64,000 nt of DNA from NCBI RefSeq assembly GCF_007992835.1, contig NZ_BKBA01000003.1:558001-622000 (forward strand), in the 5' to 3' direction. Both the position numbers and the translations under genes were made by a program. Source of the stretch: Knoellia locipacati (GTDB lineage Bacteria > Actinomycetota > Actinomycetes > Actinomycetales > Dermatophilaceae). The notes beneath the pieces were generated by a model that was given only the letters and a program-made list of their open reading frames with translations, made no database searches and was not told the DNA's origin. How positions within the stretch are numbered: the first letter of the stretch is position 1; the number at the start of each line of letters is the position of its first letter. Below are positions 21,976-28,617 of this stretch, one piece after another.

Positions 21976-23550
21976 TCAGGGACGGCGGACGGCCTCGGCC
22001 GCCCCGCCCGATGCGGTGACCGACACGCGGTCGACGTCGAGGGTGCCGGTCTCGGTCGCGTCGGTGATGCCCTCGTCGACGGGGAACTCGAGCTCGAGCA
22101 GCCCCTTGCCGAGACGGTCCGAGGACGGGAGCTCGATCGGGTAGGTCCCGGTGAAGCACGCCGAGCACAGCCGCTCGGGCTCCTGCTCGGTCGCCGCGAT
22201 CATCCCCTCCTCGGAGATGTAGCCGAGCGAGTCGGCGCCGATCGAGTTGCAGACCTCCTCGACCCCGATGCCCGTGGCGATGAGCTCGGCCCGGGTCGCG
22301 AAGTCGATGCCGTAGAAGCAGGGCCAGCGCACCGGCGGCGACGAGATGCGGACGTGCACCTCTGCCGCCCCGGCCTCACGCAGCATCCGGACGAGCGCCC
22401 GCTGGGTGTTGCCCCGCACGATCGAGTCGTCGACGACAATGAGGCGCTTGCCCTTGATGACCTCGCGCAGCGGGTTGAGCTTGAGCCGGATGCCGAGCTG
22501 GCGGATCGTCTGGGACGGTGCGATGAACGTGCGGCCGACGTAGGCGTTCTTGACCAGGCCCTGCCCGTAGGGGATGCCCGACTCCTGCGCGTAGCCGATC
22601 GCTGCCGGCGTGCCCGACTCCGGCGTCGGCATGACGAGATCGGCCTCGACGGGGTGCTCGCGCGCGAGGGTGCGGCCCATCTCGACCCGGGCCTCGTGGA
22701 CGACACGGCCGTTGATGGTGGTGTCCGGTCGCGCGAGGTAGACGTACTCGAAGACGCAGCCCTTGCGGTCGGTCTCGGCGAAGCGCTGCGAGCGCAGCCC
22801 GTCCTCGTCGATGGCGATGAGCTCGCCGGGCTCGACCTCGCGGATGAACGACGCACCGACGATGTCGAGCGCCGCCGTCTCGGACGCGACGACCCAGCCC
22901 CGCTCGAGGCGACCCAGGACGAGGGGACGGATCCCCTGCGGGTCGCGGGCGGCATACAGGGTGTGCTCGTTCATGAAGACGAAGCAGAAGGCCCCGCGCA
23001 GCTTGGGCAGGACCTCGAGGGCGGCGTCCTCGACGGTCCGGTCGGGGTCGGCGGTGAGCAGGGCGGTGACGAGCGCGGTGTCGGTCGTGTTGCCGCGGCC
23101 GATCTCACCGCGGTGGCGGGCCTCGCCGGTGGCCTCGTCGACGAGGTCGCGCAGCTCGGCCGAGTTGATGAGGTTGCCGTTGTGGGCCAGGGCGAGGGTG
23201 CCGCCGTCATGACCGCCGAGCGTGGGCTGGGCGTTCTCCCAGGTGGAGGCGCCGGTGGTCGAGTAGCGGCAGTGCCCGATCGCGAGGTGACCCTTGAGCG
23301 AGCCGAGCGACCGCTCGTCGAAGACCTGTGAGACGAGCCCCATGTCCTTGTAGACGAGGAGGCGGCGACCGTCGCTCGCGGCGATGCCGGCGGACTCCTG
23401 CCCGCGGTGCTGCAGGGCGTAGAGCCCGTAGTAGGTCAGCTTGGCGACGTCCTCGCCGGGAGCCCAGACCCCGAACACGCCACAGGCGTCCTGGGGGCCC
23501 TTCTCGCCGGGCATGAGGTCGTGGGTCAGTCGTCCGTCTCCGCGTGCCAC
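21976..23550 (-). CDS. purF: Amidophosphoribosyltransferase
   Basis: A 524-residue enzyme that commits PRPP to purine synthesis. A short propeptide precedes the nucleophilic Cys in DACGVFGVWAPGEDVA, and YALQHRGQESAGIA and GHCRYSTTGAS are glutaminase motifs. The PRPP site is IVVDDSIVRGNTQ. Cys residues in CVFEYVYLARPD, PCFYGID and CSACFTGTYP fit the [4Fe-4S]-containing, propeptide-processed class. GTG 23550 has GACACT (23557-23562 on this strand) 6 nt upstream, a leaderless arrangement; an ATG 33 nt inside is an alternative. Confidence 0.95.
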   Translation of the reverse strand: MARGDGRLTHDLMPGEKGPQDACGVFGVWAPGEDVAKLTYYGLYALQHRGQESAGIAASDGRRLLVYKDMGLVSQVFDERSLGSLKGHLAIGHCRYSTTGASTWENAQPTLGGHDGGTLALAHNGNLINSAELRDLVDEATGEARHRGEIGRGNTTDTALVTALLTADPDRTVEDAALEVLPKLRGAFCFVFMNEHTLYAARDPQGIRPLVLGRLERGWVVASETAALDIVGASFIREVEPGELIAIDEDGLRSQRFAETDRKGCVFEYVYLARPDTTINGRVVHEARVEMGRTLAREHPVEADLVMPTPESGTPAAIGYAQESGIPYGQGLVKNAYVGRTFIAPSQTIRQLGIRLKLNPLREVIKGKRLIVVDDSIVRGNTQRALVRMLREAGAAEVHVRISSPPVRWPCFYGIDFATRAELIATGIGVEEVCNSIGADSLGYISEEGMIAATEQEPERLCSACFTGTYPIELPSSDRLGKGLLELEFPVDEGITDATETGTLDVDRVSVTASGGAAEAVRRP

Positions 23551-23605
23551 ACTCCCAGTGTCCCACGATCTCGCGGGACCCCGACCGCGGTGCCGCCCTG
23601 CGGAC

Positions 23606-23632
23606 CCATCCGTCGCGGGCACCGCTCCGAAT
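23606..23632 (+). promoter_or_regulatory. SigK-type promoter of the molybdopterin oxidoreductase gene
   Basis: CCATCC (23606-23611) and CCGAAT (23627-23632) are 15 nt apart, with ATG 23641 8 nt after the -10. The elements match, as I recall it, the mycobacterial SigK consensus CCATCC/CCGAAT. An identical pair precedes the fasciclin gene, and sigK itself lies 2.5 kb downstream. Confidence 0.75.
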
Positions 23633-23640
23633 GGCTTGGC

Positions 23641-25227
23641 ATGGACGCTCCCGTTCCTCCGTCGCAACCCCGCTGGCCGTATGCCGTCAGCGGCCTCCTC
23701 GCCGCGGCCGCCGGTGCCGCGGCCGGTCACCTCGTGGCCGCTCTCGTCGCCCCCGAATCCTCGCCCGTGCTCGCTGTGGGCTCGCAGGTCATCGACGCGA
23801 CCCCCACCCCCGTCAAGGAGTGGGCCGTGCGCACGATGGGGACGAACGACAAGCCGATCCTCATCGGCAGCGTCGCGGTCGTCACCCTGCTGCTCGCGAC
23901 GGTCGCCGGGCTCGTGTCCCGCAAGCGGCCCCTGCTCGGCCGGCTCGTCATCGTCGGCCTCGCGGCCCTCGCTGCTGCCGCCGCGGTGCTCCGGCCCACG
24001 GCCGGCCAGCTCGACGTCGTCCCCGGCCTCGTCACCGGACTCGTCGGTGTCGGGGCCCTGGCCCTGCTGCTCTCACGCATTCCCAAGGCGCAGGCCGCCG
24101 GGGTCGCGCAGACCGCACGGCCCGAGAGCCCGACCGACCACAACGCGCGGGGGACCGGCGAGCCCGTCACGAGCGGGCGACGCACCTTCCTCCTCGCCGC
24201 GGGTGGGACTGCGGTCGGCGCCGCCGCCGTCGGTGCGCTCGGCCAGAAGCTCACCGCCGAGGCCATCTCGCCGTCGACCATCACGCTCCCCGCCCCCTCC
24301 CAGACCCTCGCCCCGCTCCAGGCGGGCATCGAGGGCAAGGTCAAGGGACTCGCTCCCTGGCGCACGCCCAACAAGGACTTCTACCGCATCGACACCGCCC
24401 TCGTGATCCCCCGGGTCGACGTCGACTCGTGGAAGCTCACCATCGACGGGTCCGTCGACAAGCCGTTCAGCATCGACTTCGCCGAGCTCTCGGGCATGGA
24501 CCTCGTCGAGAAGGACATCACGATGTGCTGCGTGAGCAACGAGGTCGGCGGCCCCTACATCGGCGGAGCCCGCTGGCTCGGTGTCCCGGTGCGGCAGCTG
24601 CTCGAGCGGGCTGGTGTCCGCGACGACGCCGACCAGATCCTCAGCACGTCCGTCGACGGCATGACCATCTCGACGCCGGTCCAGGCGCTCATGGACGACC
24701 GCGACGCGTTGGTCGCCATCGGCATGAACGGCGAGCCGCTCCCCCGCCGCCACGGCTACCCCGTGCGACTCGTGACCCCCGGTCTCTACGGCTTCGTCGG
24801 CTCGACCAAGTGGCTCGAGCGCCTCACCGCGACGACGTACGCCGCCAAGAAGGCCTACTGGACCGAGCGCGACTGGGCCATCGACGGACGGATCCTCACC
24901 CAGTCGAGGATCGACACCCCTCGCGGCCTGGCCAACCTCAAGGTCGGCGAGAACGTCATCGGCGGTGTCGCCTGGGCCCAAGGCCGCGGGATCGCCAAGG
25001 TCGAGGTCCGGATCGACGAGGGCCCATGGCAGGAGGCCACGCTCGGCCCCGACGCCAACGTCGACTACTGGCGGCAGTGGTACTTCCCGTGGAAGGCGAC
25101 CGCGGGCCGGCACGAGCTCACCGTCCGCGCCACCGACCTCACCGGTGCGGTCCAGACCGACAAGCGCGCCGAGCCCTTCCCCCGCGGCGCTACGGGCTGG
25201 CACTCCATCCCCGTCCTCGTCGACTGA
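23641..25227 (+). CDS. Membrane-anchored molybdopterin-dependent oxidoreductase (sulfite oxidase-like)
   Basis: A 528-residue protein. Four membrane segments (about residues 14-37, 72-92, 101-118, 127-145) are followed by a twin-arginine-like segment GRRTFLLAAGG and a periplasm-side oxidoreductase domain. Cys296-Cys297 in DITMCCVSNEVGGPYIGG supplies the Mo ligand of the sulfite oxidase fold; a dimerisation domain follows to the end. The substrate is unknown. The SigK-type promoter and the following fasciclin, sigK and rskA genes mark it as part of the SigK module. An intrinsic terminator follows. Confidence 0.87.
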   Translation: MDAPVPPSQPRWPYAVSGLLAAAAGAAAGHLVAALVAPESSPVLAVGSQVIDATPTPVKEWAVRTMGTNDKPILIGSVAVVTLLLATVAGLVSRKRPLLGRLVIVGLAALAAAAAVLRPTAGQLDVVPGLVTGLVGVGALALLLSRIPKAQAAGVAQTARPESPTDHNARGTGEPVTSGRRTFLLAAGGTAVGAAAVGALGQKLTAEAISPSTITLPAPSQTLAPLQAGIEGKVKGLAPWRTPNKDFYRIDTALVIPRVDVDSWKLTIDGSVDKPFSIDFAELSGMDLVEKDITMCCVSNEVGGPYIGGARWLGVPVRQLLERAGVRDDADQILSTSVDGMTISTPVQALMDDRDALVAIGMNGEPLPRRHGYPVRLVTPGLYGFVGSTKWLERLTATTYAAKKAYWTERDWAIDGRILTQSRIDTPRGLANLKVGENVIGGVAWAQGRGIAKVEVRIDEGPWQEATLGPDANVDYWRQWYFPWKATAGRHELTVRATDLTGAVQTDKRAEPFPRGATGWHSIPVLVD

Positions 25228-25285
25228 GGCGCGACCGCCTCGTCACCGCCCCACCACCTCACCTGTTCCGGCTGGTCCGGCACAC

Positions 25286-25329
25286 GCACTGTCCGGCCCG
25301 GAGATGTTCCGGGCCGGACAGTGCTTTTT
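25286..25329 (+). terminator. Intrinsic terminator after the molybdopterin oxidoreductase gene
   Basis: Arms of 17 nt (25286-25302 and 25308-25324, starting GCACTGTCCGG and ending CCGGACAGTGC) pair perfectly around the loop GATGT. A run of five T (25325-25329) follows, the only classic U-tract terminator in the window. Confidence 0.9.
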
Positions 25330-25393
25330 GCGTGACCGGCGGGACAGGGTGCGGACGGCATACGAAGAAAGTTGGAAAAGGTTGCACGAGAAC

Positions 25394-25420
25394 CCATCCG
25401 CCTGGCACGCAGCACCGAAT
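25394..25420 (+). promoter_or_regulatory. SigK-type promoter of the fasciclin gene
   Basis: CCATCC (25394-25399) and CCGAAT (25415-25420) are again exactly 15 nt apart. The fasciclin ATG is at 25456 with ACAGGAGA before it. The match in both hexamers and spacing to the promoter at 23606 is the best evidence that both genes are SigK targets. Confidence 0.78.
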
Positions 25421-25455
25421 CACGGTTGTCATCCACCCCCACACAGGAGACGATC

Positions 25456-26103
25456 ATGAAGCTCACGCACCGCCCCGCAGTCCTCGCCCTCGCCCTCGCC
25501 CTGCCCCTCGGCCTCGCGGCCTGTGGCAGCTCGGACGACACCAGCTCGGACACCGCGGCCAGCTCGTCCACCTCGGAGTCCATGAGCCCGTCCGCGAGCG
25601 CCTCCGAGTCGCCGTCCGACGCGATGATGGACAAGCCCTTCGGCGCGGCCTGCAGCCAGGTGCCCGCCACCGGCGCTGGCTCCTTCGACGGCATGATGAC
25701 CGCCCCGGTCGCCACCGCCGCGAGCGCCAACCCGCTCCTGTCGACCCTCGTCACCGCGGTCAAGTCCGCCGGTCTCGTCGACACGCTCAACAACGCCCCG
25801 GAGATCACGGTCTTCGCCCCGACCAACGACGCGTTCGCCGCCGTCCCGAAGGCGACGATGGACTCCGCGATGGCCGACCCCAAGGGTCTGCTGACCAAGG
25901 TCCTCACCAACCACGTCGTCGAGGGCAAGATCGCTCCCGACAAGCTCGCGGGTGAGCACAAGACCCTCGGCGGAGGCACGATCACCGTCGCCGGCAGTGG
26001 CGAGAACTTCACCGTCGGTGAGGCCAAGGTCATCTGCGGCAACGTCCAGACCGCCAACGCCACCGTCTACATCATCGACGGCGTTCTGCTCCCGGCTTCC
26101 TGA
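25456..26103 (+). CDS. Fasciclin (FAS1) domain lipoprotein, MPT70/MPT83-like
   Basis: A 215-residue lipoprotein. The signal peptide ends in LGLAACGSS (lipobox), followed by a Ser/Thr-rich spacer. A single FAS1 domain carries the conserved H1 motif ITVFAPTNDAFAAVP and ends LTNHVVEGKI to YIIDGVLLP. In mycobacteria the similar MPT70 and MPT83 are the main SigK-dependent products. The ATG has ACAGGAGA 7 nt upstream. It sits 33 nt before sigK. Confidence 0.9.
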   Translation: MKLTHRPAVLALALALPLGLAACGSSDDTSSDTAASSSTSESMSPSASASESPSDAMMDKPFGAACSQVPATGAGSFDGMMTAPVATAASANPLLSTLVTAVKSAGLVDTLNNAPEITVFAPTNDAFAAVPKATMDSAMADPKGLLTKVLTNHVVEGKIAPDKLAGEHKTLGGGTITVAGSGENFTVGEAKVICGNVQTANATVYIIDGVLLPAS

Positions 26104-26136: not shown

Positions 26137-26739
26137 ATGGTCATCATGGCAGCGGTCGGTAGTGGAGATGAGTCCTTGCCGACCGCTGCCGTGGGGCCGG
26201 ACCTCGGGAGCCTGCTGACGCGGTCGGCGCGTGGCGACGAGGGCGCGTTCGCCGAGCTCTACGACGCCACCGCCGCACGGCTCCACGGTCTCGTCGTCCG
26301 GGTCGTCCGCGACCGGGCGCAGAGCGAGGAGGTCACGCAGGAGGCGTTCCTCGACATCTGGACGCACTGCACCCGCTTCGACCCCGCCAAGGGGTCACCG
26401 CTCTCGTGGATGCTCACCATCGCGCACCGCAAGGCCGTCGACCGGGTCCGCTCGGCCGAGGCCAGCAAGGCGCGCGAGGTGACCTACGAGGTCACGACCA
26501 CCGAGCGCGAGCACGACTCGACGCTCGAGAAGGTCGAGGTGCGCCTCGACCAGCAACGGGTGCGTAGGGCCCTGGCCACGCTCACCGACACGCAACGTGG
26601 CGCAGTCGAGCTGGCCTACCTCGGCGGCCACACGCACACCGAGGTGGCAGCGCTCCTCGGCATCCCGCTCGGGACCGCGAAGACACGGATCCGAGACGGA
26701 CTCATTCGACTTCGAGACACCTTGGAGGTGACGGCATGA
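26137..26739 (+). CDS. sigK: ECF RNA polymerase sigma factor SigK
   Basis: A 200-residue sigma-70 family member with region 2 (GDEGAFAELYDATAARLHG, then EEVTQEAFLDIWTH) and region 4 (LTDTQRGAVELAYLGGHTH, then LGIPLGTAKTRIRDG). FDPAKGSPLSWMLTIAHRKA is close to the mycobacterial SigK. Its stop overlaps the rskA start (ATGA). ATG 26137 and ATG 26146 are both possible starts. The neighbouring fasciclin and molybdopterin oxidoreductase genes carry the promoters it should read; sigK itself has no such promoter and is probably reached by readthrough from the fasciclin gene, giving positive feedback. Confidence 0.88.
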   Translation: MVIMAAVGSGDESLPTAAVGPDLGSLLTRSARGDEGAFAELYDATAARLHGLVVRVVRDRAQSEEVTQEAFLDIWTHCTRFDPAKGSPLSWMLTIAHRKAVDRVRSAEASKAREVTYEVTTTEREHDSTLEKVEVRLDQQRVRRALATLTDTQRGAVELAYLGGHTHTEVAALLGIPLGTAKTRIRDGLIRLRDTLEVTA

Positions 26740-27548
26740 ACCCAGACACGCACGCCCTGGCCGGCGCGTATGCCGTCAATGCGGTGACCGACGACGAGCG
26801 TCGCTCCTTCGAGACCCACCTCGACCTGTGCGCGGACTGCCGCGCCGAGGTCGCGGAGCTGCGGGCCGCGGCAGCCACGCTCACCTCCGACGTCGAGCTG
26901 GCTCCCCCGCCGGCGCTGCGCGCGTCGGTCCTGGCCGCGGTCTCGCAGACCCGCCAGCTCTCCCCGCTCGAGCCCCCCGCCGCCGCGTCGCCCCCCGGGT
27001 CGAACGGGCCGGATGCGGCCGCCGAGCCGCTCGCGTCCCTTCCCGCCACCGCGTCCGTCGACGGTTCGCCGGCGGACGGCGACGAGCTCGCTGCCCGCCG
27101 CAACCGACGAGGTCTGCGCCCGTGGCTCGCCGCCGCCGTGGCGGCAGCCGTCATCACCATCGGTGGTGTCGCGTGGCAGCCCTGGGAGGACTCGCCCAGC
27201 CAGCTCACCGCCACCGAGCAGGTCCTGCGGGCCGACGACGCCCAGCGTCTCGAGCTGCCGATGGGCTCCTCCGAGATCACGCTCGTGCGGAGCCGTGCCG
27301 TCGGGCGGGCGGTCTTCCTCGCCGACGCCATGCCGACCCCGCCGTCGGGCAAGGCCTACCAGCTCTGGTTCGACGTGCCCGGCCGCGGCATGGTGAGCGC
27401 CGGGATGATCCCCACGTCCGGTCACGCCGTCACGGTGCCCCTCGAGGGCGACGCCAGGACCGCGACCGGCGCCGGCATCACGCTCGAGCCCGAGAACGGC
27501 TCCGAGCACCCGACCTCCGACCCGGTGGCCCTCTTTTCCTTCACCTGA
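26736..27548 (+). CDS. rskA: Anti-sigma-K factor, RskA family
   Basis: A 270-residue protein. The N-terminus has an anti-sigma zinc-finger-like motif HLDLCADCRAEVAEL, here with the His-x3-Cys-x2-Cys pattern. One membrane segment (about residues 130-150, ending before WQPWED) leads to an extracytoplasmic RskA domain including ADAMPTPPSGKAYQLWF. It should hold SigK inactive at the membrane until cleaved by regulated proteolysis. It starts inside the sigK stop (ATGA). Confidence 0.9.
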   Translation: MNPDTHALAGAYAVNAVTDDERRSFETHLDLCADCRAEVAELRAAAATLTSDVELAPPPALRASVLAAVSQTRQLSPLEPPAAASPPGSNGPDAAAEPLASLPATASVDGSPADGDELAARRNRRGLRPWLAAAVAAAVITIGGVAWQPWEDSPSQLTATEQVLRADDAQRLELPMGSSEITLVRSRAVGRAVFLADAMPTPPSGKAYQLWFDVPGRGMVSAGMIPTSGHAVTVPLEGDARTATGAGITLEPENGSEHPTSDPVALFSFT

Positions 27549-27575
27549 CCAGGCTGGTCCCGGCTGGTCCCGGGT

Positions 27576-27602
27576 GGGCCCGGTCCCGTCGGGGCCGGGC
27601 CC
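27576..27602 (+). terminator. Hairpin after rskA
   Basis: GGGCCCGGTCCC (27576-27587) pairs with GGGGCCGGGCCC (27591-27602) with a single G-U wobble and a 3-nt loop. It lies 28 nt after the rskA stop. Just upstream is a short direct repeat of GGCTGGTCCC. Confidence 0.6.
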
Positions 27603-27651
27603 GGGTCCAAGATCCCCCGTGGCGGCCCGGCCGCGGTGGACAATGGCGGTC

Positions 27652-28617
27652 ATGCGCTACGCACTCACGGGAGCCACCGGGTTCGTCGGTGGGGAACTCA
27701 CCCGACAGCTCGTCGAGGCCGGTCACGAGGTCGTCGCCCTCGTCCGGACTCCGAGCAGGGCAGACGCCCTGACCGCCCTCGGGGTGGAGCTCGTCGAGGG
27801 CGACCTCGACTCGGACGAGGCCCTCGACCGGCTGCTCGACGGCGCGGACGGGCTGTTCCACGTCGCCGGGTGGTACCGCCTCGGTGACCGCGACACCTCC
27901 GCGGGCCGCCGGGTCAACGTCGAGGGCACCCGCAACGTGCTGTCCGCGGCCCTGCGCGCGGGCACGCCCAGGACCGTCTACACGAGCACGCTGGCGATCA
28001 ACTCCGACACCGGCGGCGCGATGCGCGACGAGACCTACCGGCACACCGGTGACCACCTCACGGAGTACGACCGCACCAAGGCGCAGGCGCACGAGATCGC
28101 GCACGAGCTCTTCCGCCGCGGGCTCCCTGTCGTCACCGTGATGCCCGGCGCCGTCTACGGCGCCGGTGACACCTCGCAGGTCGGCGAGCTCTTCGCCCAG
28201 GTGGTCGCCGGGCGACGGGTCCAGGTGCCCGGTGGTGGCGGCACCCTCATGTGGGCGCACGTCGGCGACGTCGCACGCGGGCACGTCCTCGCCATGGAGC
28301 GCGGCGTCCCCGGCGAGGACTACATGCTCGCGGGCGAGCCGGCGACCCTCGCGGGCGTGCTCCAGCAGGTGGCGACCATCGCCGGCACCAGGGGGCCGAT
28401 GCGCGTGCCGGCCACCCTCATCCGGCTCACCGAGAAGGCCATGACGCCGGTGGCCAAGGTCCTGCCGGTCCCCGCGACCTACTCCCCCGAGTCGCTGCGG
28501 GCCTCGCTGGCGAGCTACACCGGCTCCCGGGCCAAGGCCGAGCGCGACCTCGTCTGGCAGTGCCGCCCCCTGGTCGAGGGTCTGCGCGAGACCGTCGCAG
28601 CGCTGCGCGCCGACTGA
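27652..28617 (+). CDS. NAD(P)-dependent epimerase/reductase (extended SDR)
   Basis: A 321-residue Rossmann-fold protein with ALTGATGFVGGELTRQL binding the dinucleotide. It resembles dihydroflavonol reductase and hopanoid-associated sugar epimerase groups. The Tyr-x3-Lys catalytic pair is in TEYDRTKAQAHEI. ATG 27652 follows GACAAT (27639-27644) by 7 nt, a leaderless arrangement. The substrate is unknown. Confidence 0.85.
   Translation: MRYALTGATGFVGGELTRQLVEAGHEVVALVRTPSRADALTALGVELVEGDLDSDEALDRLLDGADGLFHVAGWYRLGDRDTSAGRRVNVEGTRNVLSAALRAGTPRTVYTSTLAINSDTGGAMRDETYRHTGDHLTEYDRTKAQAHEIAHELFRRGLPVVTVMPGAVYGAGDTSQVGELFAQVVAGRRVQVPGGGGTLMWAHVGDVARGHVLAMERGVPGEDYMLAGEPATLAGVLQQVATIAGTRGPMRVPATLIRLTEKAMTPVAKVLPVPATYSPESLRASLASYTGSRAKAERDLVWQCRPLVEGLRETVAALRAD

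Follow-up and report, generated by a model that had tools for sequence, protein, structure and literature searches.

A predicted SigK/RskA regulon in Knoellia locipacati with a membrane-anchored molybdoenzyme among its candidate targets

The window analysed here, the whole stretch of 64,000 nucleotides from Knoellia locipacati (assembly GCF_007992835.1, contig NZ_BKBA01000003.1, positions 558,001 to 622,000), contains a cluster of four genes for a membrane-anchored molybdopterin oxidoreductase (the molybdoenzyme), a fasciclin lipoprotein, the extracytoplasmic function (ECF) sigma factor SigK and its membrane anti-sigma factor RskA. It is highly probable that the cluster belongs to an autoregulated SigK/RskA regulon, in which SigK would drive the promoter of the molybdoenzyme gene, the promoter of the fasciclin-sigK-rskA unit and a pair of distant promoters in a lipid locus. 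This reading is built on gene identities, promoter sites, their spacing, gene order and the pattern of autoregulation, all taken from sequence. The features of the cluster are as follows.

23606-23632, plus strand: candidate SigK-type promoter of the molybdoenzyme gene; exact CCATCC (23606-23611), N15, CCGAAT (23627-23632)
23641-25227, plus strand: molybdopterin oxidoreductase, membrane-anchored, 528 aa; Pfam PF00174 (Oxidored_molyb)
25286-25329, plus strand: intrinsic terminator-like hairpin 3' of the molybdoenzyme gene; stem 25286-25324 with 18 pairs, then TTTTT
25394-25420, plus strand: candidate SigK-type promoter of the fasciclin-sigK-rskA unit; exact CCATCC, N15, CCGAAT
25445-25449, plus strand: Shine-Dalgarno-like AGGAG of the fasciclin gene, read in the sequence
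25456-26103, plus strand: fasciclin (FAS1) lipoprotein, MPT83-like, 215 aa; Pfam PF02469; lipobox LAAC with C23, read directly
26137-26739, plus strand: sigK, ECF sigma factor, 200 aa; NCBIfam NF007228; PDB 4nqw
26736-27548, plus strand: rskA, membrane anti-sigma factor, 270 aa; Pfam RskA_C; NCBIfam NF052375; N-terminal HX3CX2C

The first-pass annotation, made from the sequence alone, had placed one and the same element, CCATCC-N15-CCGAAT, before both the molybdoenzyme gene and the fasciclin gene, with sigK and rskA downstream. Both sites are exact; their hexamers are identical and their spacer sequences differ, and the gene identities are confirmed by Pfam (PF00174, PF02469, ECF sigma factor, RskA_C). 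The hairpin with its T-run sets the two transcription units apart. sigK starts 33 nt past the fasciclin stop codon and overlaps rskA by 4 nt, and no CCATCC-N15-CCGAAT site of its own was found between the fasciclin gene and sigK, as had also been claimed. A fasciclin lipoprotein gene with a SigK-type site, directly 5' of sigK-rskA, thus forms an mpt83-sigK-rskA cassette. The SigK-RskA-fasciclin cassette is already known: according to PMC7509140 and PMC10540498, the three mycobacterial genes stand in the same row, with a SigK site before the fasciclin gene and autoregulation from this upstream promoter.

The paired hexamers are rare in this genome. With spacers of 14 to 17 nt, the pattern has two matches in the window, both on the plus strand and both with 15-nt spacers, where 100 dinucleotide shuffles yield 0.00 on average; the whole 3.59-Mb genome holds the same two matches only, and none of the reversed pattern, so that the many random matches which had been named as a danger to the proposal did not appear. 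CCATCC and CCGAAT would match the mycobacterial SigK consensus; a literature search on both hexamers together with SigK found no paper on SigK promoters. That the two matches arose by chance might be argued from the shortness of the hexamers in a GC-rich genome and from the order at large, in which 149 of 248 genomes have at least one match and many have several, a count that may mix real and chance matches. The shuffles, the empty reversed search and the conservation of the sites in relatives, some of which also have one upstream of the fasciclin gene, leave this explanation a vanishingly small probability, and we have ruled it out.

The site before the molybdoenzyme gene stands at a nearly fixed distance from the start codon. 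In the window, the ATG comes 8 nt past the end of the -10 element. Further loci were found with an alignment of the window enzyme and 23 relatives; the best 80 of 590 confirmed enzyme loci, all actinobacterial, make up the named-locus set, in which the best match to C[CA]ATCC-N15-17-[ACG]CGAA[CT] in the 330 nt upstream was recorded for each locus, and its distance to the next in-frame start was scored separately. Between the end of the best site and an in-frame start codon there are 7 nt in 50 of these 80 loci and 8 nt in 2 more, while spacings of 7-8 nt were found for 9 of 740 other open reading frames (ORFs) with 200 codons or more in the same loci. Sites that score at least 11 of 12 at 7-8 nt are present at 46 of 80 enzyme genes and at 0 of the 740 control ORFs, for which the procedure was similar, not identical, as the 330-nt stretch was set at the open start of the ORF and not at the homology match. 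In a second set, comprising 28 of 30 enzyme loci of relatives (one weak match and one fragment at a contig edge were excluded), the 8-nt spacing is found in 8 of the 9 loci of the window's genus; the ninth (L041) has, by eye, an 11/12 site with an in-frame ATG at 7 nt. Genera that have the site include Phycicoccus, Nocardioides, Streptomyces, Arthrobacter, Microbacterium, Amycolatopsis and Kribbella.

Because of the 7-8 nt spacing, we infer that this conserved promoter probably gives rise to a leaderless mRNA, with its 5' end at the start codon. In actinobacterial leaderless genes, 7 nt between the end of the -10 element and ATG or GTG bring the purine of the start codon to the expected point of initiation. 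The fasciclin gene is unlike the molybdoenzyme gene in this respect, as it has a leader with AGGAG before the ATG at 25456. A different view would retain the start-codon-proximal sites as SigK promoters and let transcription begin a few bases upstream, which would produce a very short leader: the window and most loci of its genus have a spacing of 8 nt and other loci one of 7 nt, and the start point may therefore shift by one or two bases. We consider a short leader improbable, given exactly 7 nt in 50 of 80 loci and the coincidence of the purine start codon with the expected initiation point.

With matches counted at E up to 1e-6, 40 of the 80 named loci have a fasciclin gene within about 8 kb of the enzyme gene, 32 have a SigK relative there and 31 an RskA relative. 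Among the 28 relatives of the second set, 25 have a SigK relative (E 7.3e-33 or better), and 19 of these carry the enzyme site (18 found by script and one, L041, by eye); none of the 3 that lack a SigK relative carries it (p=0.03).

The first-pass annotation had suggested that read-through from the fasciclin gene into sigK would provide positive feedback, and the comparison of loci favours this proposal. A site of sigK's own (score at least 11) occurs in 0 of 16 loci in which a fasciclin gene lies directly upstream, and in 8 of 14 others (p=0.0005); fasciclin genes directly 5' of sigK have the site in 13 of 16 cases. The autoregulatory loop therefore seems to be maintained by either of two routes, the fasciclin promoter or a site directly before sigK.

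Several observations weigh against the regulon as we draw it. A 7-8-nt site is absent from 28 of the 80 named loci; in 7 of these 28, a site scoring 11/12 or more lies at a different distance. Of 57 shuffled motifs, which gave a mean of 3.7 of 80, one hit 28 loci; some of the shuffles are near-copies of the motif, and the gene-based control of 740 ORFs was added because the shuffled-motif control is partly spoiled in this way. The enzyme site is missing in 6 of the 25 relatives that possess SigK. Where sigK is distant (49 of the 50 named loci that have no sigK nearby, in 48 genomes, with L093 left out and sites scored at 10 or more), a SigK relative with E<1e-45 was found in the genomes of 24 of 27 loci with the site and of 15 of 22 without it (p=0.09), and at 1e-30 in 26 of 27 and 17 of 22, respectively (p=0.08). 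Both values are trends only; the thresholds were unplanned, 1e-30 being the limit of the search and 1e-45 having been picked after the results were known, and one genome falls in both groups (L088, L104). The presence of the site and the presence of SigK are, in sum, loosely associated across genomes, which is a trend and no proof. As to the fasciclin genes, a site scoring 11/12 or more precedes 18 of 40 and is lacking at the other 22; many of these 22 follow the enzyme gene closely and could be transcribed from the enzyme promoter. In the class-wide search described below, 18 of 30 loci lead to no known regulon gene, and two groups among them repeat nearly one sequence in related genomes. The CAATCC variant found at the lipid genes may be read by a different ECF sigma factor. 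Finally, the window SigK has A and T where SigK of M. tuberculosis has the redox cysteines C133 and C183. The earlier claim of SigK control over the molybdoenzyme and fasciclin genes nevertheless gains support from sites that are unique in the genome and kept in relatives, and we regard it as predicted at this level.

The trend in genomes with a distant sigK also bears on the suggestion that the hexamers serve another ECF sigma factor of this genome, with SigK merely a neighbour. The -10 sequences of ECF groups are alike, and the genome encodes 13 further matches to SigK (E up to 0.001). The closest of them is 35% identical, and sigK, when it is not behind a fasciclin gene, carries the site itself in the 8 of 14 loci counted above. 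In addition, SigK sites are described as highly conserved in Actinobacteria and situated before mpt83 in PMC7509140. We accordingly hold this suggestion to be very improbable.

The identification of SigK, until now proposed from sequence inspection, is supported by profile and by the closest solved relative: the protein passes the curated SigK model, NCBIfam NF007228, with 256.9 bits against a cut-off of 226, and its best PDB chain is 4nqw, SigK of M. tuberculosis (E 2.1e-47). The second-best chain is 2q1z, RpoE of Rhodobacter sphaeroides. Directly 3' of sigK, the cognate RskA is encoded, with 83.2 bits for RskA_C (cut-off 29.4) and 187.9 bits for the NCBIfam anti-sigma model NF052375 (cut-off 100). 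Its N-terminal part scores 20.5 bits with RskA_N, below the cut-off of 27, and 26.2 bits with zf-HC2, above the cut-off of 22.2.

The pair differs from its mycobacterial counterpart in its redox features, as the window SigK lacks equivalents of C133 and C183 and the window RskA has the zinc-type motif HX3CX2C. In 31 sigK-rskA pairs (the window and 30 named loci), the equivalent of C133 occurs in none and that of C183 in 19, and the RskA motif is found in 27, the window included. According to PMC7509140, C133/C183 are present in 94% of ECF18 and in 56% of ECF19, and hence are not strictly defining; for mycobacteria, the same paper reports that the SigK cysteines are important to activation by RskA, and for Nocardia, that a SigK free of cysteines does not need such activation. 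The switch in the window may thus rest on the zinc-type motif of RskA in place of the SigK cysteines, and SigK-RskA pairs may employ alternative redox designs.

A relaxed search of the same genome finds 9 sites, compared with 2 for the reversed pattern. Two of the 9 form a divergent pair (C3:540655-540733; L144 and L150), placed back to back beyond the edge of the window, 41 kb upstream of the cluster. Each site of the pair ends exactly 7 nt before a start codon, one before the ATG of a gene for an FAD amine-oxidase-like protein and the other before the GTG of a gene of cyclopropane synthase (CMAS) type, and the pair lies between a FAD-oxidase/DUF1365/CMAS block and a CMAS/DUF1295 block, with two CMAS-type genes in all. 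These families presumably correspond to Rv0449c-Rv0446c. Among 18 FAD-oxidase loci with strong matches, our own genome included, 16 carry a site scoring 11/12 or more, and in 8 it stands at 7 nt. The mycobacterial regulon, as described in PMC7509140 and PMC10540498, likewise has a UfaA1-type synthase among its targets; here, unlike there, the lipid block is divergent and 41 kb away, and a molybdoenzyme with a start-codon-proximal site is added.

Another of the relaxed matches, L146 (C3:828940-828967, minus strand), is CAATCC-N16-GCGAAC 6 nt before an ATG whose frame codes for a secreted-looking protein, a possible further SigK target. Four more (L145, L147, L148 and L149) were rejected as promoters, since no fitting gene start was seen by eye.

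Across the class, the exact site followed by N7 and RTG occurs in 54 of 296 genomes, and one match of the reversed pattern was seen. Among the 30 loci followed up out of 63 matches listed, 12 lead to the enzyme (2), the FAD oxidase (3), DUF1365 (5), sigK (1) or a DsbD/AhpC-TSA protein of DipZ type (1). The last of these families was met in the same order as the window (L218), with an exact site 7 nt before its ATG, and resembles dipZ of the mycobacterial regulon, so that a DipZ-like target exists elsewhere in the order. In the same class, a NUDIX protein gene (L247) also has an exact site 7 nt before the ATG; judged by eye, the protein could be an isopentenyl-diphosphate isomerase, an identity that would be in keeping with carotenoid or light stress.

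The molybdoenzyme itself is a five-helix membrane protein with a catalytic domain at its C-terminal end. Its AlphaFold model has a pLDDT of 85.9, with five membrane helices recognised by eye and a poorly predicted linker (151-176). The catalytic domain has the sulfite oxidase fold, consisting of the molybdopterin domain, a C-terminal Ig-like domain and a cysteine ligand, and superimposes on sulfite oxidases and SorA with Z ~32 over ~300 residues; the YedY/MsrP entries match with Z ~20. The ligand, C297, is invariant in 81 of 81 sequences. Before the fifth predicted helix, all 81 sequences have the twin arginine R180-R181 when judged by pattern, and 80 of 81 when judged by alignment column 180, which agrees with the earlier description of the enzyme as Tat-like.

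This architecture, with five membrane helices, a twin arginine directly before helix 5 and a C-terminal molybdopterin domain, is that of the dual Sec/Tat family of Sco3746, as described in PMC5449189, where the Sco3746 helices export a reporter by Tat while membrane insertion proceeds without Tat. The two-heme histidines predicted for Sco3746 in helices 2-4 are unlike our case, as they are not conserved in the 81 enzymes, a comparison made by description and not by sequence; no conserved heme histidines of this type were found, and the commonest His column between residues 56 and 147 holds 10 of 81.

The assignment to a sulfite-oxidase type stands as far as the fold is concerned, and fails for the named families. 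Like SorA, SorT, SoxC and MsrP (YedY), the enzyme has the fold and the molybdenum-ligand cysteine; unlike them, it remains far below the cut-off of all four equivalog models of NCBIfam (SorA, 123.1 bits of 600; SorT, 93.6 of 570; SoxC, 114.3 of 420; MsrP, 49.1 of 207), and its cysteine loop reads CVSNEVGG, compared with CSGNSRG in SorA, whose arginine is missing there. An ordinary sulfite dehydrogenase was rejected on these grounds. The scores bear on the unlikely case in which the SigK promoters are real and the molybdoenzyme is a bystander, that is, an ordinary sulfite dehydrogenase or housekeeping oxidoreductase of the envelope that came under SigK in some lineages and shares no task with the fasciclin protein. 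Such a role would suit the close match to the fold of sulfite oxidase and SorA, the many loci with neither site nor cluster, and the separate transcription units of the two genes in the window. It is at odds with the distance from the SorA model, with a fasciclin gene within about 8 kb in half of the named loci, and with the retention of the site in many loci whose sigK is elsewhere. The shared extracytoplasmic task at which the first-pass annotation had hinted for the molybdoenzyme and the fasciclin lipoprotein is a conjecture.

In the autoregulated regulon that we prefer, RskA at the membrane would keep SigK inactive until an envelope signal, perhaps singlet oxygen or lipid peroxides that oxidise the membrane or envelope, sets it free. 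SigK would then fire the molybdoenzyme promoter, with a message that probably begins at the start codon without a leader; the fasciclin promoter, from which read-through would yield both SigK and RskA, i.e. positive feedback together with a brake; and the divergent pair 41 kb away, for the FAD-oxidase/DUF1365 and the cyclopropane-synthase-type/DUF1295 lipid genes. The products would act on or outside the membrane, by lipid modification, as a surface lipoprotein and as a Sec/Tat-assembled molybdoenzyme, the latter probably repairing or detoxifying oxidised components of the envelope. Transcription starts, signal and enzyme substrate are the parts of this scheme that we infer.

Envelope oxidation is favoured as the signal because the RpoE regulon of R. 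sphaeroides includes fasciclin and lipid genes and because two fasciclin genes of M. kansasii, mpk83 and mpk70, are reported to be induced by light (PMC9861118). Table 1 of PMC7074977 gives the fasciclin gene RSP_1409, CfaS and the lipid genes RSP_1091/RSP_1090 as members of the RpoE regulon, and furan fatty acids and the core RpoE regulon are treated in PMC6852236 and PMC7380195. The regulon of the window thus resembles the singlet-oxygen regulon of RpoE-ChrR (ECF11) in having fasciclin and lipid-modification genes as targets, and in the match of its SigK to 2q1z mentioned above. It is unlike RpoE-ChrR in the ECF group, and a singlet-oxygen response is suggested here by analogy. The window anti-sigma factor is not of the ChrR type, as it reaches 21.9 of 124.5 bits with the ChrR model TIGR02451, over its N-terminal part only. 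By this analogy, we tentatively suggest, with doubts that exceed our confidence, that SigK/RskA could correspond, in actinobacteria, to the singlet-oxygen response of RpoE-ChrR, combining membrane rebuilding by the FAD oxidase and cyclopropane/furan-type lipid enzymes, display of a fasciclin lipoprotein, and repair or detoxification by the molybdoenzyme, with several leaderless targets produced by one spacing across the class and with photo-oxidation of the envelope or lipid peroxidation as the signal.

Of the flanking genes, the epimerase downstream (27574-28617) is excluded from the cluster because, among the 80 loci, a relative (E up to 1e-25) is confined to that of Knoellia flava. On the other side, purF adjoins the enzyme gene in two Phycicoccus loci, in Knoellia flava and in the window (21976-23730), and the cluster therefore seems to have stayed at the same chromosomal place in these genomes.

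The link between the molybdoenzyme and SigK and the fixed start-codon-proximal promoter were not found in text searches of the literature, the coverage of which does not extend to the key SigK paper of 2008. From the sequence comparisons, a molybdoenzyme of Sec/Tat type appears to be a widespread SigK target in actinobacteria. The molybdoenzyme thereby gains a regulatory context, and the SigK regulon becomes readable in an environmental genus, with lipid genes, the fasciclin lipoprotein and the molybdoenzyme as the candidate older set of targets. The stimuli of SigK-RskA are termed obscure in PMC9861118; this target set may hint at a stress that can be tested. The 7-nt spacing between promoter and start would serve as a sharp predictor of SigK targets in other actinobacteria, and its constancy suggests that a stress sigma factor may systematically yield leaderless messages.

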